From the NCBI GenBank assembly GCA_026874595.1, contig CM049306.1, positions 47,800,019 to 47,864,018 of the forward strand: DNA of 64,000 nt, read 5' to 3'. Both the position numbers and the translations under genes were made by a program. Source of the stretch: Sipunculus nudus. Taxonomy: Eukaryota > Annelida > Sipuncula > Golfingiida > Sipunculidae. Of this stretch, positions 981-61,936 are shown in pieces; position 1 is the first letter of the stretch, and each line of letters begins with the position of its first letter. The notes under the pieces were generated by a model. The model was not told the DNA's origin. It saw only the letters and a list, made by a program, of their open reading frames with translations, and searched no databases.

Positions 981-2300
981 GAAGTTCTTTATGGGAATAT
1001 ACCTGTTTCTACCAGCGCGGAACAAGATTGGTTCATTTTTTTAAATCATTCTTTAAACACATTGCAAGTTAACTGACATTAATATAAACTGATGTGACAC
1101 CATTTAGAGAACAGAGAGCTTGACTTGTACGAGATATATCTTGTGTTTATATGTTCTTTTAATGAGATAAACACCCAGTTTGACAGATGTATTCTGTAAC
1201 CAGCTGACCTGAAACTCCTTTTCCTCAAATTGATCATACTATTCAAAATTGATTGAGTGTATCTGTTGTATATTATGTGTGAATATTGATGCCTATTTAA
1301 AATTAATATTGAGATAATGGCTGATACTGTAAACTATATTCATTTATACCATAGTAATATTAGGATAATTTTATTAATATTGGTTAATGTGAATACCATT
1401 AGTGTCTTCACTGTTTATATGTTTATGAGCTGAAGTGATACTGTTAAGAAGTATAATGTTTATTTTGTTATTTTCATAATGTTTTATGGAGTGACTTATG
1501 TCATATGGTCAGAAGTTAAACTATTGTAGAGAACACATGGGAGTCGGGCTATTGATGTTTATGGACCATGTTTTTATTAATGTTTTGTGATAAGAGAAGA
1601 AGATTAAAACTATTAGTGTTAGGATTTACACTGAGATAACACACAGATGTGTGACATGTTATGATTGCTACTTAAATGTGTAGAGATCCAACTTTTACTA
1701 GTGAGTGAGGAAACTGTATGACTATGAATCATTATTATAATTCATTTGTTTTATGTATTTGATGATTTATTACAGTTTAAAGGTACTATCGTATTTATAA
1801 TAAGTGTATACATGTGATCTGATTGGTTTATTGACTATTCGTCATAACTGAGACCACCATTCAGTGATAATACAAAAACAGATAGACGTTACATACTGCA
1901 TAGTGTATGAACATGCATACCAAGGACTTCTATAAGTTGTTTTATTGTAGAATGTCGAGCCTTGAAGGTCAGCCACCGTTTTCTTTTCTTGTTTTATGTA
2001 CCGGTATTAATTTGAGCATCTGTGACTGTACTTTGCATCAGATTCCCAGCCAATAAACCTGATTTTCTTGACGAATGGCTACTTTCTCAACCTCGCACCC
2101 CTGACACACCATTTACTCCCTTTGTTCCTTCATTTAAATGGACTCTATTACTTCTTATTATGATCACACGGCTCACTTTTATAAAGTAGAGGGCTGGTAA
2201 AGGTGCCTTTTTGCCATGTGTGATATAATCAACCATCTTCAACAAACATTGTATTTTTCTCATATGATACCACTGACTATGCTCACTTCTCTGTCTGTCT
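981..2300. other. AT-rich presumed plexin intron, no feature seen
   Basis: No open frame, splice-bounded exon or repeat that I can recognise on either strand. Probably intron sequence between visible exon 17 and exons beyond the left edge. Confidence 0.4.
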
Positions 2301-2309
2301 CTTGGGCAC

Positions 2310-2383
2310 CTTTGAAGAAAAAGATCTTTGGCTGCTCCACTGTATCTAACTGACTGCCAGTCACAGTGATCATTCTACCACCC
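2310..2383 (-). CDS. PLXN: Plexin exon 17: core of IPT3 (last exon visible)
   Basis: Acceptor CTCATTTTAG; GG|G joins exon 16 in frame and gives GGGRMITVTGSQLDTVEQPK then IFFFK, a typical IPT core. The proposed donor AAAG|GTGCCC is weak. Reading through it instead gives GAQETDREVSIVSGII and a stop, which would truncate the receptor. The next exon is not visible in 1-2300. Confidence 0.75.
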
Positions 2384-5300
2384 CTAAAATGAGCAAGGAC
2401 AAATAGTGTAAGGATGAACTGTAAGCACAAGCAGAAACACTGACCGAATTTTGAAATATTTTACTTATGCATGAAAACATAAAACATGTAAAATGCACCC
2501 ATTACTACGTTTCCACATATTTTAACAGTAAAAATAGTAATAAATTCCTTTTGAAAACACATAGCTTGTAAACATAAATCTCTCATAAACAACAAATTAT
2601 TTGCAGATTTCTATAAATTTATGTTGTGAAACAAAAATATAAAATATACATTAATTTCAAAACATATATGTCCTTTTGATACTAAGACAGGAAATTAATA
2701 CAGCACCCAATGATCACAGCCCTGTCTAACTCAGCAAGTTTCTCAAGTTGTTTTTCTGAAATATCTAGAAATATTATTTGATTTCACCTGGGCCGACTTA
2801 CCCTTTGAAGAATTTGAGAGGTGTGATCCCTATAACAACCGGATCATCAGTAAAACTAAAGACTTGGCTGAGTGTCCTTCGAGCATCAATTCCGTCAAAC
2901 TCGATGATGAAAATACTCTTTGTTACAGCAGCTGAAACATTTCTCGTCCTGCACTGGAGAGCTACATCAGTGATTCTGGAAGATAGATTAGCTTTGAAAT
3001 TTGAAATACTTTTAGTAATAAAACTTCCAAAAGTGAACCAAATCAAAAGTTAGAAACTTCATAAAATATCTTTAAAATTAAATGTAAAGATTTAAATGCT
3101 TGTATTGGCAAATAAAGTGTTGAAACAAAATATATTATATAAATTTTATGTAGATGTCATTTATTTATATAAAGGAAATATTCAAAAGTACATGGCACAT
3201 GGTATGGCTGAAAGCCATAATTATAATATAGATATGACATGATAAATATAATGACAGCATAAACAATGCAAGATATGTTTTTTGGTTCACACAATTGGCT
3301 CCAAAGGAGCATGTTTGATACACTTCAAATTGTCATAATGTCTGTTACAAATAGCTGAAATGTTCAGGCTTTGCAATGGACTAGTTAAATTAACCTACGT
3401 GTTTGCTATGATATCACATCTGACATCTCCAACATAAGCCTTCATCTTCTGAATAGAACCAGTGTTTAACCCAGTGCCATTCACATTGATTAATGTACCA
3501 CCAGAAGTGGGGCCTTTGGTAGGATGAATAAACAAGATCTGTGGATCCTGCAACAAACGACTATATCTCAAATGCGATTCTGAGAATGTACAAAAGGAAA
3601 TCCTATTTCTATATATGGCAAACAATTGCTTTGATGTATAGTAACAGAACAGAGTGTAACAGCTATCTGTTGTATTAATGTTCCTTGTCTATAAATAGTA
3701 ATTACATATATTATAATTTATGCAAGTAAATTATGTTTATTTTATATCGTTTAGTACAACTTCACAGGTATTTGAATCAACATTCTTTTATTAATTTACA
3801 TATATGAAAGAATCCTCAACAAAGTGATTACTTCTTCTTTAGTAAAGAAGTTCATGTCAAGATTGCGCAATGCTTAATTTGTGAAATAAGTTATTTCCAT
3901 ATTGGGCTCTACTTATTTTGTTTAGTACGTTACGTACAAATTAAGTACTACTTTCTTTGTAACTTAATGATGTCCAAAGTAATCATTACTTACATTGTAC
4001 ATGAAATTTATGTTTCCCACTGTGTTTCCTCTGATGGTTACTTGAACAACACCTATGGTAGGCCGTGATGGAGGTACCCGACACACAATTCTGAAATTAA
4101 ATAATTAAATATGTAATGATTAAAAAAAGAATTTCTGAAAAATTTAAACTTGCATTTTTTACATAAATACACACAGTAATGTCTGCGTATATATATTTGT
4201 GAATATCTAAATATACCAATCATGAAATCAAGGGAATCTCTGCATCCTTCGATTTAAATGAATGTCAATTTCATGTGTATATGGTTTGTGAATCCTTTGA
4301 TTTCATGACTTTGTTATACTTTTCTGCAAAGTACTACCAACCTTCTTGAGACCAAGTACAGGTTGGCCTGAACATCACACTGCTGGCCAGCTACAGTGAC
4401 GCTTTCAACATCTCCTACTTTAGTGCCAAGATTCCTCCCTTCAATCGTTACCAATGTCCCTCCCTCACGCGGGGCACTTGTTGGATATACCTGGAAACAA
4501 GTCGCAATCCTTCATGTTTTTATATTTCACATTTGATCAAACATTGTTACATGACGAACGCCTTCATATTTTACTCCCTGTTGAACAATATTAAAGAAAG
4601 ACCAGTATCAATTTTTACATATATATTTATGCAGTATGTGTTATATCATTGCATGTTTTCTCACTTAAACTCAATGAAGCAAGGAATAATTGTATCCCAC
4701 TGTTCATATTGATAAACTGAACATAAAGAAGATGTATTGTTTCTGTCTCTACCATACTAACACACTACTGTTAAATTCCATGCTGCTTTGCAGATCATTC
4801 TTTGTTATTTGATATTTCAACGTCTTAAACTGCAATGACTTTAAAAATAATTATGAAACAAACCCTGAAAAGTAAACTAGAATATGAAAATCAAATGTAA
4901 TCTTTCAACAATGTGAGGGAAAATGTTGACTTCTGATATTATTATTTAATAAAGTCTCACCTTATACACTATGTGTTTTGGACAAGATGTCTGGATGCTC
5001 CTACCAGTAGTCCAACACTGCCCTTCATACAGACACGAATGTCCACAATACCTACACTTGTATCGTGGCTGTGTGGTAGATAGACTGTGGCACTGGCTGC
5101 AGTCTGGACCCTTAATCACACATTTGAACAGTTCAGCTGTAAAGGAAAGGAGAATACAATAGTTTTTTGCATCCTTGTCTTCTTTATTATTATATGTCAA
5201 AAAAGCTGAATTTCCGAACAATATAATTTGCATCCAATAGTATCCTATTATTGATCTGGAAAAAACACAGTTATATATTTTATTTACATTATTTACATTA

Positions 5301-8300
5301 TTAAATGTATTTTTTGTTCACATTCTAGAACGTTTACTCAACTTTAAATACATACAATCTACCTAGTTCTCCTCTATTTAAATAATGGATATTGGTAACA
5401 ATTTGTCTGATTCTAAAGGAATACAAACCTTCTGTATTGCGTGTATCATCCACTTGATGGTTTGTATTCCACACGAGCTTTAAGCTCAACCTTTTCTCAG
5501 CAATATTCTCATTATACGTCCACTGTGAGAAAAAAATGAAACATTAATTTCAGTTGTTTTTGAGCATGACATGCAGTAAAACAGTTTAATTTATAACATT
5601 TTATCTTCATGAATTGGAAAAGCTGAATAAACTGAAACACTAGATCTATAGGCATCTAAAACTGAAACATTACAAATCAAAACGAAAGTTCAACGACAGC
5701 TCACCTTGTTTGACTGACATTCTAATTCATTTGAGTTTATTCTATCTGCTCCAGTGCTTCCTACTGAACGTGATCCATCCCAGAGCTGGCACTGGTAACC
5801 GGCCATCCCAGACTGTAAGCAGAAGCGACTACTAATCATGATATAAAGCATCCTCCTATATACTTTGTTCATCATATGTATGTTCAAAAGTATAACAAAC
5901 ACAAGGTTATTCTGTAGATATCTGTACAACATTCTTCCTCTTGAACACTTTAATTGAATTCCAGTCATGGTATGAAGTATCATATATCACAGGTGCTTGA
6001 ATTCCTGTTAGTGTAGATTTCGGTGCACAAATTTAACCGAAATTTATACTAATAGCATTTCAAGGGCCTGTGCATATATCGTTAACACCCAGGTCATAAA
6101 CCAGTGCACAATGATCTATTCTCAACTTAAGCTGCACAAAGCAATAGTGAGAAGATGCCCCTGACACACACCTAATACAATTTAAACTTGGTATTTTTTA
6201 TATTTAATTAAAACACATCAACATATCTATAACCACTGGTAGTAAAGATAGATCTACACTATTTGGCAAAGAAGAGCAGCAGCCCCTACTGTACCTTTAT
6301 TTCCGGCAAATGCTTTGCTGACAGGCGGAAAGAATATTCATAATCTGCTGGTACAATGATAGGAGACTGAGTTTGTGTGATCTGTGGGCAATATCCAGAT
6401 CCTCGGCTCCTTAGGGACTGAAAGTAACAGGCATTATCATATTGTTTAAAAATCCTCATGTTTATCATGTCTGAAAGTTACATGCGTTATCATATTGTTT
6501 ATATTGTTTAATTTTTTTTATTCTGATTGAAAACTTGATCACAGGACCATATTTTATCTTAAAAGTAATCCTCTGAATAGCTTTAGAGGTTAAATAGACC
6601 AGTTTACAGGTTATTTCTTTCCAATTCCAACAATGAAAAGCTTTATAATGGCACTGTCTTGGATGATATTTTTTTGCTTAGAAATATCTCTTATACTTGT
6701 TTCAATTGATGTGTGACATAATGTGGCTGTATCATTGTGTATTATCATAACTCTAAGCTCTCTACGTTGAATATAGCAAACAGAATATCTATACTGGGCA
6801 TGAAAGACAACACATACCTGATCTTTGCTGTACACCACTAACTCATCAGGACTGGAGCACTGGGCAGCAGAGTCATACGAGCAACGGTTGCTATAGATAC
6901 ACCAATCACATCGCCATGCACTGTCAGCACACGGGGCACAGCTGAAACATATCAGTGGTAATGTTATCTTTCAGTCTGACCAAGTGAGATGTGGTTGATT
7001 ATAATCAAAGAATTTTAATCTGTAAGTATAATCAAGCAATTGTCAAATAACTAACACAATTGGCAATTCTCCAAAGAAGTAAATAATCTTCTTTCAAGGT
7101 AAACCTTGACATTTCTTAAATGGCACAGTTCACGCAAGCATGTTCAGAAGGACAGACACAGTGGTTGACTTCGAATTCCCTGGGTAAAAATTTCATAATT
7201 TTCTACTTTTGACTGTTTCGTGAGGGTTCTTTTTTGTATCTAACCAATCAATAATCATAACGAAGTATATCCCTCATTTTATGGAATAATTGTACAAAGT
7301 TAAATGTGCGCAAAATCATCAAATTTTGATTGGGAGAGAAGGGTACATCGAACGATTAGATATCATAGATGACAGATAATATGAGGATTATATTATTAAT
7401 AATACCTATCTTAGAGTAACCGTAACATACATGATCGATTATTTTTTATAAATCATTCTTTTGTCTTATGACTTGTCTTCAATGAAGGGGCCTTTTATTC
7501 ACAAGATTTTATTTTTTGCGATAATGTTACTTTCGCAATCATTACGAGTTGGAAACCCCTGCATTTAAAAAGGGTACCACAGTATATAAAGGACTCGAGT
7601 AGAAAAAGCTACTGTCTCAGATCACAGTATTTTAACAGTTTTTCCACAAGCAGCTTAGTGTTACAATAAATAAAATGTTTGCTTACACATCTTTTACACT
7701 GAAATTATTGACAATAACATATGTTTTCTCTGACATTTTAATAATCGTGAAACAATATCTGAACAGAACTTAGGAATTTAATATAAAAATTCTGAATCCT
7801 GATTGAAAGGTAAGAATTAACCAAAGCAAAACACTTCCAAGTGACAACACACTAGAACAATTAAGGGTGCATTGCAGTTTGCTTGAATATAGAAATATTA
7901 TAACAGTTGTGAATGGTATGTTGATGAATTGACACACTCACTTGATGTTAAGTAATTGTTACTGCAATTTAACATCACTGCATTTCAACCTCAACTATCT
8001 TTATCAGCTATATCAATTGGAACTACCTTTTGTGGACTGAACATTTATACATGTTGACTTTTTGTTGGGCCAGTACTTGTCCTGTGTCAGTGTTTTCCAA
8101 CTTAACCAAGATCTCTATGGCATCTGAAAGATAACCATCCCTCATTCATAACAGATATGCGGTTCAAGAAGATGTCTTTTTTTTTTTTTTTTATCAGATG
8201 TACCAGTCAATATTTTTGACACTGAAATTATAACAGCAAAAATAACATCATGATTCATGTGATGATTTTTAACTGTTGAAGAAGATAACATTTTCTGTAT

Positions 8301-11300
8301 AGTTTCATGACAAAAAAAATAAAAACTTAAATAACATTTTTCTACATTAATGTCAGGATTTGCTATCTTTCATTCATACCTTAGATAGAGAAAATATATG
8401 CTTTAATTTTTTCTCTTAATGGAAACTGTAAAATGAGACCTCTGACATGTAACCTCACAATTAACGCAAAATCATCAACAACATCCACAGCAGACTGCAT
8501 GGGTCAAGTAAAAATTAATATAATTAATCTTTCCGAGATGTAATACTAAAATACAAGTATATTGAACTTGTTCCCAAAATGAACTTTTTCTGTACAAAAT
8601 GAATATTATATATAATTACCTTTCCCAGAAATTAGCGGAGGAAGCTTGTCTGCTGGGGGCACCTTGCACTTTAATGTATTACCATTCCGAGTTGCCGAAA
8701 CTTGAACTGAGCCGAAAGAACACTGGTATAGTCCACCATACTTCATCTCTGGTATGATATCTAATAAAACCTCAAGCTGAAAAATGTCCTAAAAAACTAC
8801 AATTGTGTCAAGAGAAGCCTACCTTTATGAATGTTTAAAGCATGCTGTAAATTGATAGTTTCCAATCTCTCCTTCAAACTATAGCGTTACCAGTTATCAA
8901 ATCTCACAATATTTTTTTTTCTTTTTTCTTCAGTAAATACACGTACCACTAAGCCGATTAATGTTTTGCTTGTACTTTTTCCGTACTTATATCAAAGTGA
9001 ATTGATTGTTTAATAAAATCTTTATTTTTAAGTTTTAATACACATCTGTCAATGTTTTATCAAATTTTGAAGTTCCCTTATATAAATGGCCACTGCTTCA
9101 AAATTACAGTAGTGGGTATTCTAAGATTAATTACATGAGTATCTTTCTCCAGTGAGATGTTAGTGGGTTCCCACCGGATCAGTTTGAAACACTTTGTCTC
9201 CTTCCTGGAGAGCCAACGGAATAACAGATTATTGTTCTCACATTCTTCTTTTAGAGAGCATCTGCAACAAACAATGGAACACATGAAAAGGAGCCCAAAC
9301 CACAAACAATCTGTGTAAAATGATTTCACTCAATCAATTTAACATATTTCAATGAGTTCAATAATTTCAATAAGCACATCCATGCATACAATTTATTTAA
9401 AAGAAACATTAACCATTAGGAGATATCAGTTCCAAGAAATAGAGAGATCATTTGCCAGAATGCTGAAAGCTTGACAAAAAAAATTAAGAAGAATTTGTTT
9501 ATTAAAGAACTCACATTTAAATTTTGAAAAAAAAAATTAACAAGAATAGAAAAAAATAAAGATTAGGCCACACCAAGCTAAAAAATAGTTATAATTATTT
9601 GTAGAGACACAATATGTAGAATTTGCAAGATAGCAAAGAGAAATAAAACACTCTTCATATCTTTAGATGGTGCATAAAATCCGGACAAGATTAGCGCATT
9701 TCCCAACAACTTTAAGCATTCTTTGAAGGAATCGAAGCAAGGGCTCTTTTAAAAATTACCCACGAGAATAACTCCAGGACATCTTATTTTGTGGCCTTAC
9801 TGCTCGAAATCACAACGTGATTCCAAAAGTTAAGGACCAAATATAAAGTCTCTTCTATGTATTTTTGTGTGTGGTCCCTATATCCATCCAACGGATTGAC
9901 TTTGACCGTTTGAGGTGCTTCTAGGAACAGACCTAGGACTGTATTGAGACGGGTAACTACGTAGTGCTGGATACGGACTTCAGCCGTTGGAGCCTTTGAC
10001 TCTGGGCTCATCAAGATCATTCTTCACGCGGTGAAAAAAACAGTGAATACGTACGTTAAAACGGACATACTGCTGCAAGAATCATTTGTGAGAAGGATCC
10101 TCTTAAATCCTTGTGCTCGTGTACCGGTGCCAGGGACGCTCTGTGTTCATCTATAGAACAGCTCCGGACTACGTGAGGGCATCTGTCATGTAACCAGGTG
10201 TCCACAAGAACAATATTGTCTGTATTGAATTAAAGGAATGGTGTTTAACTGTGTTTTCAACACTTGTGTAGGTGTGGGTAGTATGCCTCACCAGAGATAT
10301 GTAAGTAACTTCTTTCTTTGTTATTATATTTTTTTTACTTTACACAGGTCTCAGAGTCTTTTTGGAGGACGTGTGTATGTGGCCAGCCATTTGATATAAC
10401 TGTTTTAAAAGAACCTGGACATTCAAATCCCAAGCGGTGTGAATATATATATACGAGTATATCAGACAGTAAAACAGCCTTAATTACCATTAAAAATAAA
10501 TAATATGAAAGTAACTAGATTTACCTATAATGGTATAATTTTTACTATCAAAAGAGTGACATGGGCTGTAATTTTATTTTATTTACCAGAGCCTGAAAAA
10601 ACGATGCACCAAGTCTCCAAATATCAAAATAGGAGTGCTACGGCTGACATTTACATCTCAAGTTTGATCACCTTTGTGCTCCTGTCTCTGACGCTCACTG
10701 TACGGGGGCGACATCTGATGGATAAAGGGACAATTTCTGGTTACATCTTTATGCGTTCCCTTGACCTGTGCGTATGGTCCGTCACTCAATTTGCAGGACC
10801 GTGATTTTATTAGTTATTTTTTATTACAGCAGTAAATCTAAAAAATTAAAACCATATCTATACATTTAGAAATATTCGACTCAGGTCTTTTTTATATATC
10901 CATTTCACAAAAGACTTTTCTCATGTTTTTTTTCATCAATAATCAATCAACAGACACATGTCAAGATTGAGAGGCGTGACCGGAAGCGGATCCAGGGGTG
11001 TCCAGGGGGTCAAGACACGCCGCAACCTTGTTTTGGTTTCTGGCCAATGTTTGTGGCCTGGACACCCCTATTCTTGACCTAGGGACCATTTTTATAAGCT
11101 TTGTCATTAGCTCTCCTGGGTTGGACCCCCCTGTCTTAAATCCTGGATCCGGCCCTGATGACATCATGTTTTAACCAACTGTGTGTTCTGATCTGTTGTA
11201 AGACATATTTTGATCATTCAGTGAATATTTACTTGTTTTCAAGAGAGCACCATCCACAGTAGGGGTCGTTTGCCTGAGTGCAGGAATCACAACTCGTGAA

Positions 11301-14300
11301 CTCACTACATTTCTGAACAGGTATCCTGTACACCTGGAAAAAAAATAAAATAAAACACTTAAGTTGATATCATACTAAATATGACAGAAAATGGAAAAAA
11401 GACATGCACGCACAACCTCACGAACACATATATACATATATATACATATATATACATGTATTTACCTAATATAAGTGATCTGTAATAAAAACTCAATCAT
11501 ACAAAACCAGCCGATGTACTGGCGTCATAGTATGGACGTTGTTTTAAATATTATCACCAAAAAATGAGAGTTTCGGAACAAGGCCATAATACCTACATCA
11601 AACATATTCGCCATACACAAACATGCACTACCTTGGGGTTTAAACATTGAAGAACAATTGTACCTTTTAATTCACTTAAATCATTATAAATTGAATTCAG
11701 CTGATCTTACTTTGTTCTTTGATGTCAGATAGACATGAGATTTATCCCGCTGTATGATCATATCACTGTTGATAGGACTCCCCTCCTGTATAACAATGGA
11801 AGAGTATGTGGTTCCTCTCCTAGAGTCTTCAAGTATTACCTAAAATAGGGATTATATACAAATCATAATCATGTACTTTACATGTATACAGATAAGGATG
11901 TTGAATCTCAATCTTGTAAAAATAAGAATGTTGAATATTCAATAACAAATAGTCCTGTTATTATTCAGAAAGAAAAGCAACAAACAGACACTTCATATAA
12001 TGGTCCAAAGACGGAAATATTGATATATGATCTCTGAGTAATTTCATTCAGCAGAGATTATGAAAAATACTGTTCACCTTAATTTCGAATGTACTGCTGG
12101 GATGATGTAGTTCACATGACAAATAGCTACACAGTAGCTATCAGCTACTTTCATATAAAAAATCTCTAGGAACGATGACCGGGTGATATATACTTTTTAT
12201 TTGGATTTTTAACATGTCTCTTTCCTCATGGAAATGTCTGGATTTGGGGCATCTGATTTCCAACCCATTCAAAAGCACTTTGAATACAAATCACTTGGAG
12301 CTTTCTGTGTTTTTGTAATAATTATCTCATTGTCTAAGAGCCACTAAGGGATGTTTATCCAGATTCCCTAGGCCAACCATGAGCTCGACCTTCATGCTTA
12401 TTTGGAATTTACCATCTTAATCAGCTTGAATAGTGCAAGTGTGTGGATATTAAAGCTGAACACCATGTTATGAGACACACAAATCGAGGTGAAAACTAGA
12501 ATGAGTTGGTTTTTATTTTGCATAAAGAGTTATATGTCTCCCCTCCCTATGGGCCTCTCATCCCCAAATTTAGGGGGGGGGGGATATTGAATACTTTGGG
12601 TTCACAAAATCCTAGATATCTGAAGATTTTACCTTGAAGTTAAAAATCAAGGTTACCAATATTCCACCACATCAGAGATTTTCGTTGAAACAATTCACGT
12701 ATCAAATATCTGAATATATACTTTATTTTGTTAACAAATAATATCCATTCCAGCTGATCTGACCCCAGTGATAAAAGTCCAGTACACTAATTTGTTTCCA
12801 TCATGTTTGAGAACTTGGTTGAAACAACTTGAGTATCAAATTTGGATAAAGAATATGCAGTGCCTCAAAAGTTACCATTTCAAAAGAAACTGAGTAAACA
12901 ATGTGCAATAATTCTGTTAATTTGACCTTGAATATCCAAGTCAAGGTCAACAGTTTTCTAGCTCAACAAAAGACCTGGTTGAAACAATAGGTGATTCAAA
13001 TTTGAGGAAAACGTGATACTTAAAAAATTATGGGGTTCACAAAAACATTTAATTTCAGCCTAATTGAACTTGATGGTAAAGGTCAACGTCACGAGTTTTC
13101 AAACTTGTCCGACATATTTGTAGAAACTATCGTCACCAATCCATTAAAAAAAAACTTGTACCAATTTTGACATTCTGACACTTGCCTTTTTCAGATGACC
13201 CATGCTGGTGCCCACAAAGGCAACTGTTTCGTCTCTGACGGTACTGACTGTCAGACCTGTCATCTGCTCCCCGGACCACGTGGTCACTGCCTCAGCTTCT
13301 AGAGGTAGTTCACAACTCAGAGGGGGTTTCAGTGTCTGAGTGCAGAAGTCATTTAACCCTTGCAAATTATCCTACAAACAGGATAAAAAGGTTAAAATAC
13401 CATGTGAGTATTTTAGTTAAGAGAAAAGGTTATAGCATTTTACAGTACCGTAACACCATAAATGAAAAAAAAACGTGATTACTGCATTTGACACCAAGCT
13501 ATGTAAATTTAACAAACAAAAGTAATTATACATATAAACTTATGGTTTTTTTTCTCAAGTTTACACGATATATCCTAATTGTGCTTTATGTTTTCACTCT
13601 ATATTGATTTCCAGTGACCTCAAATTCCTTTAAAACCAGAAAATCGGCAGTCGCATGCAACCACAGGTATCTATTATATCACAGAGGCAAAGGTAAAATA
13701 AGGCATTGAATGTTCCTGACAAGACATTACTCCAAATCTATAGCATCAGAGATGTCGAAGTATCCCAAGACAGATGGATGGACGAAACTAAAGAAATATG
13801 GGCAGACGAAAAGCGAAAACAAGTATTTACAGAGCCATGGATAAAGTGAGGGGATGGAAGGTTTCCTGGCATGATTGGTCTCAATATTTGTTGCATGAGA
13901 GATGCAAAAATGTCTCACAGTGGAAAACGTCATGGTAGGTGGTGGTACTTGTGTCTAGAACAAAGTTAACCAAGAACAATAAACTTTGTCAATTCCAGGT
14001 TTATACAGCCTTTGGGCCATGAGAAATTTTCACCAAAAACTGATCTACAGATGGGTACAGAAGGGTACGACATTGATTGTAGGTGGCCCAGGAGTCTTGT
14101 ATACAAGATAAACCATTCCCATATCTATGTACATGCAAACTATCAGGTCAATACATCAAACCAATCCTTAGGAAAAGGTAACATATTCTACAACAAGTGA
14201 CCCATGGGTCATGGCGCTCAGCCGACTAACAATGTTGACAATATGTCCTTGCGCAGGCAACTAATTAAGAAAATGTAGGTGGCATCATCGTTCATGCATA

Positions 14301-17300
14301 TCAGTTTAAGACACATAAGCACACCAAATTTGATGACAATCCAACAAGCCTTGTCTGAGGAATCTGGCAATTTGTGTGTGTTTTGCAATATTTCTTGGGT
14401 GCTCAAGCGTACCCCAAAACTCTGAGCATATAGATCACAATAACCCAATTTCAGGATGTCAAGTTAGAAGATTCTGGGTCCAATGGTTATGATTTGTGCC
14501 CTACTTTGGTGTCATATTTTCAATTTTGGAGTTACTGCTAGGCCCCATAGCTCGGAGAATATGGGTAACAGAGACCTAATTAAAGGTTTCCTGGGAGGTT
14601 TTTCATGGACCTCCCTTGATGTCAAGTAAGAAGATTCCAGGTCCATTGGTTACAATTTGTGCCCTGTTAACAGACGACCACATCTTTAAAGGTCTAAAAA
14701 ATAGAGAGAAATGCGTAAAAATTAGAAGAAAAAAACAGGTGGCGCCACCAGTCTGCAAGAGCTGATGTAACACTCCATGATGAATATGCGTGCAAAGAAT
14801 CATGGTGATCAATGCATTAGTTGTCCAGATACTGGAGCTTTTGTATCAAATTTTTAGTTATTGCAGGGGTTACTTCTGAGCCCCTAAGCTCGGAGGATCT
14901 GGGTAACATAGACCGAAAATCAGGTTTATGGAGATTTTTATAGACCTCCGGGGATGTCAAGTTAAAAGATTCCAACTAGGTCCAATGGTTACAATTGGTG
15001 CCCTATTAACAGACGACAACATCTTTAAAGGTCTCAGAAAAAAAATAAAAATGCATAAAAATTCGAAAAGAAGTCCAGGTGAAGCACCAGTCTGCATGAA
15101 CTGATGAAACACTCCATAATGAATATGCATGCAAAAAAATCATGTCGATCAATGCACTAGTTGTTCAGATACAAGAGCTTTCGTATAAAATTTTTAGTTA
15201 TTCTGTAGGTACTTCTAAGCCCCATAGCTCGGACAATATTGGATAAAGACCTAATTTCAGATTTCCATGGAGACTTTTCATGGGCCTCCCTACATATCAA
15301 AATACAAGATTCTAGGTCCAGTCATTACGATTTGTGCCCTGTTAACAGATGACGACATCTTTAAAGGTTTCAAAACAGAGGTAAAAATTATTAAAAGATC
15401 TAAAAAATACAGGTGGCGCCACCAGTCTGCAGAAACTGTTGAAACATATCTTGATTGGACGACCGGACGGAAGACGGACAAAGAGTGATTGCTAAAGCTA
15501 AGATGACTTAAAGTCAGCTGGGCTAAAAACCAACAGGTAGGTGGCGCCACCTGTCTTATCTATGAAGGATCTCCTCTATGTGAAAACGATTGTAGGTGGC
15601 GCCACCAGGTTTGTCTTCAAGATGTTCGATTCGAAATCTCTGGTCAGTCTCGTGAATGAGAAATCTACCCAAAATGGATGAACATGCTTAATTTCAAGCT
15701 GAGACACCAAAAACCACTGAGAAAAAGTTCTTCAGTTTATTCTACAAAACGGAACAGAAGCTGTCCGGTCTACAACAAAGCTATCCAAATCGGATAAATA
15801 TACAAACTCTCCTGATATGAGCTATTTTTAATCAAAGTAAACATGCTATTTGAAGTATTTACCAAATGTTCGAGTACATCATTTTTATACTTCTTTGATT
15901 GTACATCAAATATTAAAATAAAGATTACTATTTTATTTGAATATATGTTATTCATCATTTTTTATTTCGATATAAATGTTAAGTTGACCATCCAACTTAA
16001 TTTGGTCCTGCTGAAATGCCGATAATATAACAAGGCAATGCATGGTTGGAGCATCAACAGTGCCATCTGTCGCCAATTGAGATCACCAACAATAAAATAT
16101 GCCATTATTTCACTATGCCTCACCTACGTGTATGTAATGGTCAGTTTGTGTTGTTTTGGAAAGATGTGAAAATGTGAATTTTTATCCATGATTTAGCACT
16201 AGCGGGTGTTGTATATTTTACTCATGCACCTCACAACATAGGTTATTTATATTCAAGAAGGGATTCAGGCAAAACAGGGAAGGAACAGAACAAATACTTA
16301 CACAACTGCTGGAAGTGCCAATGTTTTGGAAATATTCGACTCTTTCAAAATCACTGCATTTCCTTGCGTTTTCTATAAATTTTTCTCGGATTTTCCTTAT
16401 TGTAAAGATACAAAGAGCTGATCCTTGTTGTCCATTGAACACAGAGTACACCACATCTTCACAGTCTTCAACACCAAGACTGTCTGCCAGACGTTTTCCT
16501 GGCTTAGCTAAGATGGCCGAGGAGATGCTGGAGTAATAGGTTGACCCAGATTTACATTTGATAGGCATTTCAACAAATGACTGATATTCCTTGGCATCTT
16601 TGCAAATTTGGCCCATGTTTGACACTTTATATGCTTTATTCTGTTTAAGATAGAAAAAGTAGGCATAATTCCCAGAGTAGAAGCCTGACACATACTTAAT
16701 ATCATTTGAGATACTATTTTTAAAAGAAAGAGCACTGTATTTTTCTGTTAAACCATCATCAACACGGTAATAAAGCTGCAGAGGTCCATTGGTTAAGCTA
16801 CGGGAGCTCACAGCTGTTGTGGTCTTTTTAAGAATAGGATCTCTAGCACGTATAAAAGAGACCGCAACATATAGAACCTCCTCTGATGCACCTGGTCCGA
16901 GAAATGCTACTGTTGCAGGTTGTTCCGCAGAACTTGACACTTTTACATCACTTGTGGATTTAACAGACAAATCTGCTGGATTATGGAAGCTGCATGTCTG
17001 ACTACTACTGCAACTGATGATATATGATGGGTGTATTAGGCCAAAAAAAATTAAAGGTATGGTTCTCAGGCACCGCCCGCATCAATTTTAAACCCCCGCA
17101 TCAAAACTTTTTATTTTGATTTTCAATATAAATTTTCCAATTATGAGCTGCTGCCGCTCCGAAATTTCTTTCAAGAAGATAAAACCATACAATTTCCTTT
17201 GTTTTGTAGTGCTTTTACTTATTTAGCAAAATAAAACTGTTATTTTCTTGCTTTACCCTTATCATCTGACATTTTTATCGAAACATACCAAAAAATTTAA

Positions 17301-17646
17301 AATAAAAAAAGCGCCCGCCCGCATTGATTTCTGAAAAAAAGTGCCTGAGAACCATACCTTTTTTTTATTTTGGCCTTACTAGGATCTGATTGAATATACC
17401 AGTTCCCGTGGAAACATGAGTGACTTTTTCCAAACGTTCATTCAATTTAATTAGTTTATTTTCAGCTCCAATATATATATTCCCGCTTCTGTTGTCATAT
17501 GCCAGATGTTGAATATTTAGTTGTGCTTCATCGCCACTGTTTGCCCATGCTATATTTACTGAGCACGTTCCAGGTACCACCATCAGGAAAACCATCAGCA
17601 GACGACACGTGCATGGCGTCTCACGTGACAGGGTGTATAACGACAT
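2310..17646 (-). CDS. PLXN: Plexin (semaphorin receptor), 5' part of gene, 17 coding exons, partial
   Basis: Plexins are single-pass cell-surface receptors that bind semaphorins through an N-terminal sema domain and signal through a cytoplasmic Ras/Rap GAP domain in axon guidance and cell adhesion. Chaining 17 minus-strand exons by splice site and phase gives about 1023 residues: signal peptide (1-30), sema (about 35-440), PSI1 (about 445-490), a linker IPT-like region, PSI2 (about 603-645), PSI3 (about 753-809), IPT1 (810-891), IPT2 (892-980) and the start of IPT3. Diagnostic stretches are CGWCSLENKCSLKEEC, KCSVHKSCAPC, QEGSP and GGTLVTIEG. The exon phases agree at every junction. The rest of IPT3, later IPT, transmembrane and GAP regions must lie left of the window. 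I cannot tell class A from class B. The sema exon is interrupted by a MITE at 17039-17375. Confidence 0.93.
2802..2975 (-). CDS. PLXN: Plexin exon 16: end of IPT2 and start of IPT3
   Basis: Acceptor CTATCTTCCAG, donor AAAGG|GTAAGT, 174 nt, phase 2 to 2. Residues ITDVALQCRTRNVS and VFSFTDDPVVIGITPLKFF give the LQCRT..F.F.DDP transition seen between plexin IPT domains. Confidence 0.88.
3399..3547 (-). CDS. PLXN: Plexin exon 15: second IPT/TIG domain
   Basis: Acceptor TTTGTTGCAG, donor AACAC|GTAGGT, 149 nt, phase 0 to 2. DPQILFIHPTKGPTSGGTLI continues NVNGTGLNTGS and YVGDVRCDI, an IPT start. Confidence 0.92.
3994..4090 (-). CDS. PLXN: Plexin exon 14: end of IPT1
   Basis: Acceptor TTAATTTCAG, donor AAT|GTAAGT, 97 nt, phase 2 to 0. 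RIVCRVPPSRPTIGVVQVTI followed by NFMYN is the conserved C-terminal half of an IPT fold (IVC..P..V.V..F.Y). Confidence 0.92.
4342..4490 (-). CDS. PLXN: Plexin exon 13: first IPT/TIG domain
   Basis: Acceptor TTGTTTCCAG, donor AAG|GTTGGT, 149 nt, phase 0 to 2. PTSAPREGGTLVTIEGRNLG is a textbook IPT start (P..G..GGT..TI.G.NLG), followed by VTVAGQQCDV. Confidence 0.93.
4961..5136 (-). CDS. PLXN: Plexin exon 12: third PSI domain
   Basis: Acceptor CCTTTACAG, donor AAG|GTGAGA, 176 nt, phase 1 to 0. Encodes LFKCVIKGPDCSQC, YKCRYCG and CWTTG..SCPKHIVYK, the plexin PSI3 with eight cysteines. The usual CGWC is CRYCGH here. Confidence 0.92.
5429..5522 (-). CDS. PLXN: Plexin exon 11: strand with LVWN motif
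   Basis: Acceptor TTCTCACAG, donor GAAG|GTTTGT, 94 nt, phase 0 to 1. ENIAEKRLSLKLVWNTNHQVDD corresponds to the plexin LSVVWNGNF..DNP segment before PSI3. Confidence 0.88.
5705..5812 (-). CDS. PLXN: Plexin exon 10: second linker, GYQC segment
   Basis: Acceptor TGCTTACAG, donor AAG|GTGAGC, 108 nt, phase 0 to 0. GMAGYQCQLW and INSNELECQSNK match the GYEC..LQCQ cysteine pair of plexins. Confidence 0.9.
6295..6417 (-). CDS. PLXN: Plexin exon 9: start of second linker (CPQI segment)
   Basis: Acceptor TTACTTTCAG, donor AAG|GTACAG, 123 nt, phase 0 to 0. YCPQITQTQSPIIVPADYEY matches the plexin CPQI..VPVG segment that follows PSI2. Confidence 0.9.
6818..6941 (-). CDS. PLXN: Plexin exon 8: second PSI domain
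   Basis: Acceptor TATGTTTCAG, donor CAG|GTATGT, 124 nt, phase 2 to 0. Encodes SCAPCADSAWRCDWCIYSNRC, then DSAAQC, the short plexin PSI2 pattern. Confidence 0.93.
8027..8123 (-). CDS. PLXN: Plexin exon 7: linker strand ending KCSVHK
   Basis: Acceptor TATCTTTCAG, donor AAAG|GTAGTT, 97 nt, phase 1 to 2. The peptide AIEILVKLENTDTG..VNMYKCSVHK corresponds to the plexin block that ends FYNCSVHQ before PSI2. Confidence 0.9.
8620..8776 (-). CDS. PLXN: Plexin exon 6: Ig-like/IPT linker between PSI1 and PSI2
   Basis: Acceptor CATTTTTCAG, donor AAAG|GTAATT, 157 nt, phase 0 to 1. Encodes LEVLLDIIPEMKYGGLYQCSFG and NTLKCKVPPADKLPP, the plexin beta-sandwich with its paired cysteines. Confidence 0.88.
9135..9261 (-). 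CDS. PLXN: Plexin exon 5: end of PSI1 and start of linker
   Basis: Acceptor TTTGTTGCAG; one base completes a Lys codon from exon 4, giving LENKCSLKEEC. Donor CAT|GTAATT, 127 nt, ending phase 0 after LEKDTH. A later GT at ACT|GTAATT is possible, but the first joins best to exon 6. Confidence 0.85.
9262..10980. other. Plexin intron 4, left part, no feature seen
   Basis: AT-rich sequence between exon 5 and the small MITE at 10981. Short open frames on both strands lack family resemblance and splice support. Confidence 0.4.
10981..11157. mobile_element. Small MITE (family G) copy 1
   Basis: The ends CGGAAGCGGATCCAGG and the reverse complement CAGGGCCGGATCCAGG form 16-bp inverted repeats. Flanks are GTGAC and ATGAC, compatible with a 5-bp target duplication with one change. 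The interior holds G-rich and C-rich tracts and a GTCATTAG..GTTGGACCCC block shared with the copies near 30.0 and 30.8 kb. It lies in plexin intron 4. Confidence 0.7.
11233..11333 (-). CDS. PLXN: Plexin exon 4: first PSI domain
   Basis: Acceptor TTTTTCCAG, donor AA|GTAAAT, 101 nt, phase 0 to 2. Encodes VYRIPVQKCSEFTSC, then DSC and ANDPYCGWCSLEN, the standard plexin PSI1 signature (C..C..C..DPYCGWC). Confidence 0.93.
11711..11839 (-). CDS. PLXN: Plexin exon 3: last sema strands with QEGSP motif
   Basis: Acceptor TATTTTAG, donor AAA|GTAAGA, 129 nt, phase 0 to 0. The peptide contains TTYSSIVIQEGSPINSDM and SHVYLTSKNK, matching the conserved plexin stretch in which a Gln/Asp-Glu-Gly-Ser-Pro motif precedes the final strand leading into the first PSI domain. 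Confidence 0.9.
12650..13120 (+). repeat. Diverged tandem array, period about 144 bp
   Basis: The block GTTGAAACAA..TATCAAAT recurs at about 12684, 12829 and 12972. Units are strongly diverged. It lies in the intron between plexin exons 2 and 3. Confidence 0.5.
13186..13371 (-). CDS. PLXN: Plexin exon 2: C-terminal sema blade
   Basis: Acceptor TTTGTAG at 13372-13373, then DNLQGLNDFC and LTVSTVRDETVAFVGTSMGHLKK, the typical end of a plexin sema domain. 186 nt, phase 0 to 0. The best donor is AAAAAG|GCAAGT, a GC donor. Joining there gives GHLKK-VILEDSRRG, the expected plexin order. A GT donor 10 codons later (TTG|GTACAA) is a weaker alternative that would insert ASVRMSKL-type residues. Confidence 0.85.
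14440..15500 (+). repeat. 338-bp satellite (family A), copy 2, inside plexin intron 1
   Basis: The palindrome-linked block ..CCACCAGTCTGCA recurs at about 14749, 15086 and 15421 (336-337 bp). Units contain GTTAACAGA(T)GACGAC, CATCTTTAAAGGT and CCCCATAGCTCGGA. It ends with GACGGACAAAGAGTGATTGCT at about 15473, like copy 1. Confidence 0.85.
15539..15607. repeat. Two extra AGGTGGCGCCACC palindromes
   Basis: AGGTGGCGCCACCT at 15539-15552 and AGGTGGCGCCACCA at 15594-15607, just outside family A copy 2, 55 bp apart. Same core as in families A and B. Confidence 0.8.
15608..16301. other. Plexin intron 1, 5' part, no feature seen
   Basis: AT-rich; no motif or repeat recognised between the palindromes and exon 1. 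Confidence 0.4.
16302..17038 (-). CDS. PLXN: Plexin exon 1, 3' segment: central sema domain
   Basis: After the MITE the frame resumes as IHPSYIISCSSSQTCSFHN, which matches the plexin sema pattern of a beta strand followed by Cys-X-Ser..Cys. It continues with ATVAFLGPG, SSRSL, YVSGFYSGNYAYFFYL, FVEMPIKC, LAKPGKRLADSLGV, DVVYSVFNGQQGSALCIF and IREKFIENARKC, all hallmarks of plexin sema domains. The donor is TGT|GTAAGT after Cys, phase 0. Without the MITE and one TSD copy, the coding part of exon 1 is 1005 nt (335 codons), similar to the single large sema exon of other plexins. Confidence 0.92.
17036..17378. mobile_element. 337-bp MITE with TTA target duplication inserted in the plexin sema exon
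   Basis: The element proper is 17039-17375. Its ends are inverted repeats of about 35 bp, starting GGCCAAAA and containing the shared block AAAGGTATGGTTCTCAGGCAC. TTA stands immediately outside both ends (17036-17038, 17376-17378). A 3-bp TWA duplication and a GG-starting TIR are typical of PIF/Harbinger transposons, so I assign it there by inference. It carries no transposase frame, so it is non-autonomous. Deleting the element plus one TTA joins the flanks in frame. Confidence 0.88.
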
Positions 17647-39225: not shown

Positions 39226-41092
39226 ATGCATTTTTAGCTCAGCTGACTGAAAGTCATCTGAAAGTCAAGAACCTTGTAAATTGGGATTCTGAGAGGTCCA
39301 TGAAAAATCTCCTTGGAAACCAGAAATTAGGTCTCTGTTACCCATATCCTTTGCGCTATGGGTCCCCAAAGTACCCCCCAGAAAAGTCAAAAATTTCATA
39401 CAAAAACTTCAATATCTCATTAACTACTTGACTGATGGTCATGATTTTTGGCATACATATTGATCATGAGATGTTCCATCACTTCCTGCAGACTGGTGGC
39501 GCCACCTGTATTTTTCGATTTTTTACAATTTTTTTTCTCTATTTTTGAGACCTTTAAAAATGTGAACATCTGTTAACAAGGCACAAATCGTTAAGACTAG
39601 ACCTAGAATCTTCATTCTTGATACACTTAGAGGTCCATGAAAAATCACCTTGGAAACCAGAAATTAGGTATCTGTTACCCATATCCTTCGAGCTATGGGG
39701 CCCCAAAGTACCCCCCAGAATAGTAAAAAATTTCATACAAAAACTTCAATATCTCAATAACTACATCACTGATGGTCATGATTTTTGGCATACATATTGA
39801 TCATGAGATGTTCCATAAGTTCCTGCAGACTAGTGGCGCCACCTGTATTTTTCGATTTTTTAACGATTTTTTCCTCTATTTTTGAGACGTTTAAAGATGC
39901 TGTCATCTGTTAACGTGGCACAAATCGTAACCCCCCAGAATAATGGAAAATTTGATAAAAACACACTGCAACATCTCAATAACTACAACACAGATGGTCA
40001 TGATTTTTGGCATACATATTGATCAAGAGGTGTTTTATCAGTACCTGCAGACTGGTGGCGCCACCTGTATTTTTTCAAATTTTCACAATTTTTTTCTCCT
40101 ATTTTTGAGACCTTTAAGGATGTAGTTATGTGTCAACAGGGTACAAATCGTAACAACTGGACCTAGAATCTTCATTCTTGACACACAGGGAGACTCATGA
40201 TAAGTCTCCATGGAAACCTGAAATTAGGTCTCTGTTACCCATATCCTTTGAGCTATGGCACTCCAAAGTACAGCACAGAATAATGGAAAATTTGATACAA
40301 AAGCTGAAGTATCTGAACAACTAATGCAGAGATCACCATAATTGTTTTCATGGATATTGATCATGGAGTGTTTCATCAGTTTCTGCAGACTGGTGGCACC
40401 ACCTGTATTTGTTCAGGTTTTTTTACGAATTTTTTCTCTATTTTTGAGACCTTTAAAGTTATGAACATCTGTTAACAGGGCACAAATCATTAAAACTGGA
40501 CCTAGAATCTTCATTCTTGACACACAGGGAGACCCATGAAAAGTCTCCATGGAAACCTGAAATTAGGTCTCTGTTACCCATATTCTTTAAGCTGTATGGC
40601 TCCAAATTACCCCCCAGAATAATGGAAAATTTGATAAAAACACACTACAACATCTCAATAACTACAACACAGATGGTAATGATTTTTGACATACATATTG
40701 ATCATGACCTGTTCCATCAGTTTCTGCAGACTGGGTGCGCCACCTCTATTTTTTTCAAATTTTTATGATTTATTTTCTCTTTTTTCGATACCCTTAAAGA
40801 TGTGGTTATCTGTCAACAGAGTACAAATCGCAACAGCTGTACCTATAATCTTCATTCTTGTCATGCAAGGAGGCCCATGAAAAGTGCCTGTGGAAACTTA
40901 AAATTAGGTCTCTGTTACCCATATCCTTCAAGCCATAGGACTCCGAAGTATCCCTCTGAATAATGGACAATTTGATACAAAAGCTGAAGTATCTGAACAA
41001 CTAATGCAGAGATCACCATGATTCTTTGCATGGATATTGATCATTAAGTGTTTTTATTAGTTTCTGCAGACTGGTGGAGCCACCTGTATTTT
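39226..41092 (-). repeat. 338-bp satellite (family A), copy 3, six units, inverted
   Basis: CTGCAGACTGGTGGCGCCAC (or variants) occurs at about 39487, 39823, 40047, 40383, 40724 and 41063. Spacings are 336, 224, 336, 341 and 339 bp. The short interval is a roughly 115-bp internal deletion near 39930. The left end is TTTTTAGCTCAGCTGACTG with an immediate AGTCATCTGA complement. Orientation is opposite to copies 1 and 2. Confidence 0.88.
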
Positions 41093-41987
41093 TGTACCCG
41101 CCAAAATGAAGTTTTGCGGATACTATGTTTTTGACCGGGTTCCTCCGCTGTTGCCGCATTCGTTTCTAGAGAGCTCCTCTGGGACTTGATTTTATGAGCT
41201 TTCCAAGCTCATATCTCTGGAACCTTTTGACTGATCAGTAAATAAAATTTATACAAATGTAGCCCTTGGATAGCTCTCTAACATACACAAAAAAATGGTG
41301 GCGCCACCTGTAACCATGTTCGCACAGTGTCCATCTGTTCATCTGCCTTTGATTAAAATCACTCATATCTCTGCAGTGAATTGACTAATTCACCTGAAAT
41401 TCGGCATGCGTACCATGCGTACCTGCAACAGTTTTTGCACAGTGTCTGTCTGTTTGTCTGCCATGCAATAAAGTCACTCACATCCTGGCAGTGGTTTGAC
41501 ATGTCTGCCTAGAATTTTGCAGTTTTATACATCCTGGAAAGCTCTCTTGATTTTATGACAGATGGCGCCACCTACATTCTAGTTTATGCTGCAGACATCC
41601 AAGCTCATATCTCGGGAACTGTTTGACGGATTGGGCCAAAGTTTTGCATATGTATAGATCTCATATAGCTCTTTATCATACGCAAAACTGGTGGCGCCAC
41701 CTGCAACCATTTTTGCACAACATCCGTCAGTTTGTCTGCCATGGGCTAAAATCACTCGTGTACATGTATAGTGGTTTGACTTATCAGCCTTGTATACAAC
41801 TTGGACAGCTTTCTGGATTTTGTGGTAGGTGGCACAACCTACATACACATTTCAGCTGCAGACATCTATGCTAATATGCAACACTTCACTCTATTTCCCC
41901 TTGCCACTCAGTCCATGCCTCACTTTACCCATTCCCCTCTTATTTTGGCGGATACACCTAGTCGCTTGTCGACTACCCGTATTCTAG
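41093..41987 (+). mobile_element. Helentron-like element (family B) copy 2
   Basis: Begins TTTGTACCCGCCAAAATGAA with the GTTTTGCGGATAC hairpin partner. Internal palindromes at about 41297, 41562, 41690 and 41825. It ends GGCGGATACACCTAGTCG, then a TAGTCG/CGACTA stem-loop and CCCGTATTCTAG (41976-41987) before TT. It directly adjoins the family A array. Confidence 0.8.
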
Positions 41988-47954: not shown

Positions 47955-49141
47955 TATTTGTGTCCACCAAAATGAAGTTTTGCCGATACTATGTTCTTGA
48001 CTGGTTTCCGCCGCCGCCGTAATCTTTCCGGAGAACTCCTCTGAGACTACTGGACTGATTTTTCCGAAACTTACACCAATTATCGGGTCACATGTGAACT
48101 GGTGCCTAACCAATGTGCGTTGACCTCTGACCTTTCCTCTCTGCCCAGCTTCCATTTGTACGTCTGTTTCCATACATAAACCTACATATCTCGGGAACCG
48201 TTTGACTGATTAGGAATCCAATTTTGTACAAATGTAGCCCTTCCTTGGATAGCTTTATAATATACACAAAAAATGGTGGAACCACCTGCAACCATGTTTA
48301 CACAGTGTCCATCTGTTCATCTGCCTTGGGTTAAAATCACTTATATCTCTGCAGTGGTTTGTCAAATTCACCTGATATTTGGCATGCATATACATCCTGG
48401 ATAGCTTTCTTGATTTTATGACAGATGGCGCCACCTACATTCTAATTTACGCTGCAGACATCCAATCTCATATCTCGGGAACCATTTGACCGATTGGGCC
48501 AAAATTTTGCATGTGTATAGATCTCACATAGCTCTTTATCATAGGCAAAACTGGTGGCGCCACCTGCAACCATTTTTCCACAGCATACGTCTGTTTGTCT
48601 GCCATGGGATAAAATCACTCATATCTTGGCAGTGGTTTGACATATCTGCCTAAAATTTTGCAGGTTTATACATCTTGGATAGCTTTCTCGATTTTTTTGG
48701 CAGGTGGTGCCACCTACATTTATGTTAACGCTGCAGACATTCAGGCTTATATCTCAGGACTGGTTGGACATATCTCCCTGAAAATTTGCATGTGAATAGA
48801 TCTAACACAGCTCTTTATCATATGCAAAACTGGTGGCGCCACCTGCCACCATTTTTGCACAAGTCCTTCTGTTTGTCTGCTGTGGGATAAAATCACTCAT
48901 ATACATGTAGTGGTTTGACTTATCTGCCTAAAATTTTGCATTGGTATACAACTTGGACAGCTTACTTGATTTTGTGGTATGTGGCGCAACCTACATGCAC
49001 ATTTTGGCTGCAGACATCCATGCTAATATGCAACACACCTCACTCTATTTCCCCTTGCCACTCAATCCATGCCTAACTTCACCCGTTCCACTCTGATTTT
49101 GACGGATACACATATTCGCTTGTCAACTACCCATATTCTAG
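47955..49141 (+). mobile_element. Helentron-like element (family B) copy 4
   Basis: 5' TTGTGTCCACCAAAATGAAG. Internal palindromes at about 48273, 48424, 48553, 48701, 48831 and 48976. 3' GACGGATACACATATTCG, then CTTGTCAACTACCCATATTC and TAG, ending CTAG at 49138-49141 before TT. Confidence 0.82.
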
Positions 49142-60493: not shown

Positions 60494-61936
60494 TTGTATC
60501 CGCCAAAACAGAGTTTTGCGGATACTATGTTTTCAGCTGCACGCCGCCGCCGCGTAGGTGTCCGGAGAACTCCTCCGTAACCGCTGGACGGAATTTTACG
60601 AAACCCGGGATTATGTTCGGGTCACATGTGAACTGCTGCGCCCCGATTTTGTTTTGACCTCCTACCTTTCCTCTGCGCTCTGGGTCTGTTTGTGCGTCTG
60701 TTTCCACACATAAACCCACATATCTCGGGAACCGTTTGACCGATCAAGAAAATTTTTTTGCACAAATGTAGCCCTTGGAGAGCTTTATAACATACACAAA
60801 AAAGGTGGCACCACCTGCAACCATGTTTGCACAGTGTCCATCTGTTCGTCTGCCTTGGGTTAAATCACTCATATCTCTGCAGTGACTAGACTAATTCACC
60901 AGAAATTCGGCATGCGTAAACATCCTGGATAGCTTTTCTGATTTTATGACAGGTGGCGCCACCTACATTCACATTTACGCTGCAGACATCCAAGCTCATA
61001 TCTTGGGAACCGTTTGACCGATCAGGAAAATTTTTTTGCACAAATGTAGCCCTTGGAGAGCTTTATAACATACACAAAAAATGGTGGCGCCACCTGCAAC
61101 CATGTTTGCACAGTGTCCATCTGTTCGTCTGCCTTGGGTTAAAATCACTCATATCTCTGCAGTGACTTGACTAATTCACCTGAAATTCGGCATGCGTATA
61201 CATCCTGGATAGCTTTTCTGATTTTATGGGGCCACCTACATTCACGTTTACGCTGCAGACATCCAAGCTCATATCTCAGGAACCGTTTGACCGATTGGGC
61301 CAAAATTTTGCATGTGTATAGATCTCACATAGCTCTTCATCATACGCAAAACTGGTGGCGCCACCTGCAGCCATTTTTGCACAGCTCCTGTCTGTTTGTC
61401 TGCCATGGGATAAAATCACTCATATCTCGGCAGTGGTTTGACATATCTTCCTAAAATTTTACAGGTTTATACATCCCCGACAGCTCTCTTGATTTTATGA
61501 CAGGTGGCGCAACCTGCATTCTAGTTTATGCAGCAGACATCCAAGCTCATATCTTGGGAACCGTTTGACCGATTGGGCCAAAGTTTTGCATGTGTATAGT
61601 TCTCACATAGCTCTTTATCATACGCAAAACTGGTGGTGTCACCTGCAACCATTTTTGCTCAGCGTCCATCTGTTTGTCTGCCACGGGCTAAAATCACTCG
61701 TATACATGTAGTGGTTTGACTTATCTGCCTTAAATTTTGCATATGTATACAACTTGGACGGCTTTCTGGATTTTGTGGTGGGGGGGGGCAACTTACATAC
61801 ACAATTTGGCTGCAGACATCCATGCTAATATGCAACACACTATTTCCCCTTGCCACTCAATTCATGCCTCACTTCACCCGTTCCACTCTGATTTAGGCGG
61901 AAACACGTAGTCGCTTGTTGACTACCCGTATTCTAG
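60494..61936 (+). mobile_element. Helentron-like element (family B) copy 5, longest
   Basis: 5' TTGTATCCGCCAAAACAGAG with hairpin partner TTTTGCGGATAC. Eight internal half-units: about 60803, 60951, 61083, 61226, 61352, 61501, 61631 and 61780. 3' GGCGGAAACACGTAGTCG, then stem-loop, then CCCGTATTCTAG with CTAG at 61933-61936 before TT. A G homopolymer lies at about 61778-61786. Confidence 0.85.

Follow-up and report, generated by a model that had tools for sequence, protein, structure and literature searches.

A PIF/Harbinger-type MITE in the first exon of a truncated plexin-type gene of Sipunculus nudus: a probable recent gene inactivation

A transposable element that comes to lie within a coding exon may destroy the gene that it enters or, if the splicing machinery removes it, may become an intron. 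This question is raised by a locus of the sipunculan Sipunculus nudus at which a miniature inverted-repeat transposable element (MITE) interrupts the open reading frame of a plexin sema domain. The original prediction, made from the nucleotide sequence alone, left the choice between a recent knock-out or polymorphic allele and an element that is removed by splicing. Splicing, if true, would place a DNA transposon at the first step toward an intron in an animal; otherwise the locus shows how DNA transposons ordinarily disrupt copies of genes. We analysed the whole stretch of 64,000 nucleotides (C1:47800019-47864018; hereafter the window) within an assembly of 1.43 Gb in 153 contigs. The gene concerned is encoded on the minus strand and is referred to here as gene B; two neighbouring plexin-type paralogues are referred to as genes A and C.

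The element and its family

The MITE is 337 bp in length and lies within exon 1 of gene B (Table 1). Its inverted arms extend over 36 nt with 92% complementarity (32 of 35 positions identical when 35 bp are compared), and its ends read GGCCAAAA...GGTATGGTTCTCAGGCAC. A search of the window for the 18-mer GGTATGGTTCTCAGGCAC, allowing up to three mismatches, returned two matches, one in each arm, against a chance mean of 0.02. The list of open reading frames of the window contains no stop-to-stop frame of 100 amino acids in the interior of the element. The interval originally predicted, 17036-17378, is correct to the base and comprises the element together with both copies of its target site; the 35-bp inverted ends and the TTA on either side, which had also been predicted, were both recovered.

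A genome-wide search with the element listed 41 copies, including the window copy, at 97-100% identity. All but one of these span all 337 bases, the remaining copy starting from base 3; the best 40 of 2,030 candidates were scored for this listing, and the true copy number is higher. An exact 34-base piece of the element matches the genome 1,293 times (645 forward and 648 reverse), compared with 0 and 0 for the reversed-pattern control. Flanking sequences were examined for 28 of the 41 listed copies, taken best matches first from a family of more than a thousand. An identical TTA or TAA is found on both flanks in 26 of these 28, the window copy included; the exceptions are L003 and L062. Around the 26 sites with matching duplications, oriented to TTA, the adjacent positions carry little signal, and a symmetric excess of A/T is seen at -11/+11 (16/26 each), at the edge of the span. 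The 28 copies differ pairwise by 2.0% on average (range 0.3-4.2%), a low divergence that is partly the result of selection, since the copies were picked as best matches to the window copy. Compared with the majority sequence, the window copy shows three differences, two of which recur in nine and ten other copies, so that it carries one private change among the 28. Copy L006 (C4:59473708-59474141) has partial matches of 82-85% to the same element on both sides, as though it had landed in an older relative; at C10:52807128-52808698, three copies lie inside 1.6 kb.

The 3-bp TTA/TAA duplication and the terminal inverted repeats fit PIF/Harbinger MITEs. Tc1/mariner elements duplicate TA and other families duplicate TTAA, and both are ruled out by the duplications observed. 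The Harbinger-type transposase domain PF13359 has at least 150 matches in the genome, all above the cut-off, among the best 150 of 701 candidates scored. Tourist-type PIF/Harbinger MITEs such as mPing of rice are likewise short, non-coding and many times repeated in near-identical copies, with inverted ends and a 3-bp TTA/TAA duplication, but belong to another host, and the kinship of the Sipunculus element with them is judged from structural features. The PIF/Harbinger-like identity originally proposed is thus supported by near-identical copies with TTA/TAA duplications. One report on mPing gives TAA as its target-site duplication and describes its excision in yeast as precise in 109 of 110 cases (PMC2836001), and precise excision is also stated for elements of the PIF/Harbinger superfamily (PMC4561436). 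DNA transposons and MITEs are reported to abound in bivalve genomes (PMC10294476).

The interrupted exon and its paralogues

Upstream of the insert the frame of gene B reads ...GIFNQILV and then continues for RPK to a stop inside the element; immediately past the element it picks up again at IHPSYIISCSSSQTC. When the element and one TTA are left out, exon 1 becomes 335 stop-free codons. The best match of the restored peptide among solved plexin structures is 'Plexin A, isoform A' (6fkm), which we take to be from Drosophila, with an E value of 1e-24. The aligned stretch, residues 79-321, crosses the joint at residue 90, where FNQILVIH..PSYIISCSS..SQTC lies under YNKVLLIDRATSRLIACGSLFQGTC (dots represent gaps). 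The location within a coding exon, the restored sema frame and the stop within four residues are therefore as the original prediction had them. It had also named two findings that would tell against its observation, a normal intron unrelated to the element at this site and a failure of the element-free frame to align with plexin sema domains; the frame aligns as described, and neither paralogue has an intron at the site.

Genes A, B and C lie on the same chromosome within about 210 kb, in the regions C1:47716001-47826000 and C1:47955501-48031500 (L029-L048). Exon 1 of gene A (C1:47756745-47757755, minus strand) and exon 1 of gene C (C1:47967330-47968298, plus strand) show 87 and 88% protein identity, respectively, to that of gene B. 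At the insertion site gene A has the uninterrupted sequence CAGGTCCTAGTAATTCATCC and gene C has CAGGTCTTAGTAATACATCC, each with a single TAA, whereas gene B has CAGATCCTAGTAA-[element]-TAATACACCC. Since both paralogues are uninterrupted, the site holds no conserved or old intron, and this candidate was rejected.

Table 1. Features of gene B and of the inserted element (window coordinates unless C1 is given)
Feature	Position	Strand	Remarks
MITE, PIF/Harbinger type	17039..17375	.	Terminal inverted repeats, TTA duplication, near-identical family copies
Target-site copy TTA (gene strand TAA), 3' side in gene orientation	17036..17038	.	Single copy in paralogues A and C
Target-site copy TTA (gene strand TAA), 5' side in gene orientation	17376..17378	.	
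Terminal inverted repeat, arm 1	17039..17073	+	32/35 positions identical to arm 2
Terminal inverted repeat, arm 2	17341..17375	-	32/35 positions identical to arm 1
Exon 1, 5' part	17376..17646	-	Start codon at 17646, to ...FNQILV; first TAA copy included
Exon 1, 3' part	16302..17038	-	IHPSYIISCSSS... to ...SSSC; second TAA copy included; donor GTAAGT
Exon 2 (sema)	13186..13371	-	Donor GC (AAG/GCAAGT); GT in A and C
Exon 3 (sema)	11711..11839	-	
Exon 4 (PSI)	11233..11333	-	
Exon 5	9135..9261	-	
Exon 6	8620..8776	-	
Exon 7	8027..8123	-	
Exon 8 (plexin A/B-type PSI)	6818..6941	-	26.4 bits alone (cut-off 25); 22.3 within the whole protein
Exon 9	6295..6417	-	
Exon 10	5705..5812	-	
Exon 11	5429..5522	-	
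Exon 12 (PSI-like)	4961..5136	-	Plexin-B PSI model 18.2 bits, under its cut-off of 27
Exon 13	4342..4490	-	
Exon 14	3994..4090	-	
Exon 15	3399..3547	-	
Exon 16	2802..2975	-	
Exon 17	2287..2383	-	
Exons 18-20	Left of window	-	Exon 20 starts at C1:47785110

Gene B comprises 19 ectodomain exons, whose order matches that of genes A and C. Once the element and one TAA are removed, no stop occurs in the 1,170 codons of exons 1-19, and all splice dinucleotides are present, the donor of exon 2 being GC instead of GT. None of the three genes has a stop over the 1,130-1,135 codons compared. Over 1,130-1,131 aligned codons the branch dN/dS is 0.385 for gene B (bootstrap 0.29-0.52), 0.277 for gene A (0.18-0.41) and 0.235 for gene C (0.17-0.31); the value is the highest of the three in gene B, with overlapping bootstrap ranges. 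Gene B was thus constrained over much of its existence, if perhaps a little less than genes A and C, and the stop-free 1,170 codons together with the branch dN/dS leave a long-dead pseudogene unsupported.

The synonymous branch of gene B since the paralogue split (dS of about 0.10) also bears on the age of the insertion. Set against the one private change of the window copy, it indicates that the insertion is probably far more recent than the duplication, a rough dating only, as it relies on that single change in copies chosen for likeness.

Plexins combine an ectodomain of sema, PSI and IPT/TIG domains with a membrane segment and a cytoplasmic RasGAP domain. Sema, PSI and TIG domains are likewise found in gene B, but its membrane segment and GAP exons were not. 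Exon 20 of gene B ends with YEQSCYN and a stop ahead of any membrane segment, that of gene A contains a hydrophobic membrane-type stretch followed by a short tail and a stop, and that of gene C runs on into a hydrophobic membrane-type stretch, the membrane segments being judged by eye. Gene C has three further stretches that match the plexin RasGAP domain, and Pfam confirms one of these. A tblastn search with one GAP exon of gene C and a human plexin GAP stretch gave no GAP match in 60.3 kb of gene B or 41.9 kb of gene A. Downstream sequence is common to genes A and B and is unmatched in gene C. Because gene B stops before the membrane segment and has no GAP match, it most likely encoded a secreted ectodomain, and it is a truncated duplicate that the MITE interrupts and not the fuller receptor, gene C. 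Genes A and B are possible decoy plexins. The original prediction overlooked this arrangement, in which gene B is a truncated duplicate beside a gene C with membrane and GAP exons.

Splicing and other explanations of the insert

Could the element be spliced out as a new, introner-like intron, from a donor CTA/GTAAGG to an AG downstream of the element? The donor is the one point in favour of this idea, since GTAA of the host and the first GG of the element together form a fair site, with the exon end at 17380 and the GT at 17379-17378. It scores 6.1, and the 18 genuine donors of gene B span 4.8-10.6. Joined to an acceptor that lies 398 bases beyond the element (score 8.5), it leaves the frame open and reaches the highest pair sum, 14.7, at the cost of 133 sema-domain residues; the created donor and this in-frame pair count against inactivation. 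Elements with inverted repeats and target-site duplications that have turned into introns are known, some of them adding or deleting codons, according to one account (PMC9860276). As in introners, an element bearing such repeats and duplications lies here in a coding exon and its target-site duplication helps to make the splice-like GTAAGG; in contrast to them, it offers no pair of sites for exact removal, and the copies examined show no excess of open frames. The splice weights behind these scores are generic metazoan values, which were checked in each of the three genes on 18 donors and as many acceptors. Two enumerations were made, one of GT/GC-AG pairs, starting with donors 150 bases ahead of the element (141 open in-frame pairs), and one of GT-AG, GC-AG and AT-AC pairs ordered by size of change (438 pairs). 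No GT-AG, GC-AG or AT-AC pair removes exactly the element and one TTA, and the smallest 12 of the 438 changes require either AT-AC ends or a GC donor scoring -3.0 (seven residues lost). The AT-AC ends do not look to us like U12 sites. In the full list for the created donor, each of the five in-frame acceptors within the element leaves a stop, while the ten beyond it are all open; the nearest of these, at +41, scores 1.2 and costs 14 residues, VIHPSYIISCSSSQ, which include a cysteine aligned to Plexin A. A pair formed by an upstream donor (4.5) and an acceptor at +66 (4.9) loses 29 residues. The weakness of an acceptor does not by itself exclude splicing, since one real acceptor of gene A goes down to 1.4 (real acceptors: A, 1.4-12.2; B, 3.7-15.4; C, 3.8-13.3).

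The other copies sampled likewise give no sign that the family consists of introners. Only one of the 27 others examined (L055) lies in a frame that is open across the 234 bp of its empty site, against a background of 7.5-12% for stretches of this length (300 open among 4,000 random places in window 20000-64000, and 109 among 896 in the flanks of L002-L008); open frames are therefore not over-represented at these sites, for 28 copies examined of 41 listed in a family of more than a thousand. Introners are moreover given as limited to two groups, both of them animals, among the animals and land plants studied in the account cited above (PMC9860276). The splicing branch of the original prediction thus finds little support, in the lack of an exact pair, the weak sites of the low-loss pairs and the ordinary frequency of open frames, and we regard it as very improbable. 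That some transcripts splice the element from the GTAAGG donor to an acceptor further down the exon, yielding a shortened plexin ectodomain, appears a shade less probable still. A better case, if still an unlikely one, can be made for gene B having been a dying duplicate already, in which the MITE is a passenger in neutral sequence. The end of exon 20 before the membrane segment, the failure to find GAP exons, the GC donor at exon 2 and the highest branch dN/dS of the three genes agree with this. Against it stand 1,170 codons free of stops and frameshifts despite about 10% synonymous divergence, splice dinucleotides that are all present apart from the single GC, a bootstrap upper bound of 0.52 for dN/dS, and the example of paralogue A, which is also constrained and in which GAP exons were likewise not found. 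The least probable explanation is an assembly error that joined a repeat into the exon; it could appeal to the single assembly and to the locus being found at 100% in one copy only, but a misjoin is not expected to yield an element that is complete at both ends and flanked by a perfect 3-bp duplication.

A probable course of the inactivation

We therefore favour a recent insertion of a PIF/Harbinger-type MITE that very probably inactivates the truncated plexin-type duplicate, gene B. The knock-out branch of the original prediction is supported by the near-identical family with TTA/TAA duplications and by the empty site in two paralogues. A non-autonomous MITE, presumably mobilized in trans by a Harbinger transposase from elsewhere in the genome, entered exon 1 of the tandemly duplicated gene B at TAA and duplicated it. 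The element brings in an in-frame stop, three codons beyond the last codon that is shared, so that translation is predicted to yield 93 residues and to halt ahead of the greater part of the sema domain. As the early stop is followed by many introns, the transcript is probably a target of nonsense-mediated decay, through which, together with the stop itself, gene B would be inactivated. Lacking a membrane segment, gene B may already have been selected weakly, or not at all, when it was hit.

The 3-bp duplication and the usually precise excision of PIF/Harbinger elements suggest that the damage may be reversible at the level of the DNA. Precise excision takes one target copy with it and would leave the single TAA seen in genes A and C, and even if both copies of TAA were left behind, one codon would be added and the frame would remain unshifted. 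Given this behaviour, the allele may be unstable or polymorphic for presence and absence. The insertion has an ordinary explanation, a mutation by jumping DNA of a kind already known, of which it is a very clean example: a roughly datable natural knock-out, as it would seem, caused by a MITE of recent activity, for which two uninterrupted paralogues serve as controls. Should the allele be polymorphic, it could readily be used to learn what truncated and probably soluble copies of plexins do, and whether genes in animals are restored when a PIF/Harbinger element excises precisely.

Of the 25 open reading frames listed for the window, eight gave no Pfam match. Repeat units of about 337-341 bp form tandem arrays at 110-903, 14528-15446, 39292-39928 and 39930-41093, and stretches similar to the array at 14528-15446 occur in introns of gene C. 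Two further tandem arrays, at 48269-49029 and 60791-61774, consist of 278-bp units containing GGTGGCGCCACC, and GGTGGCGCCAC occurs 17 times on the plus strand of the window, in some cases outside the arrays of 278-bp units.
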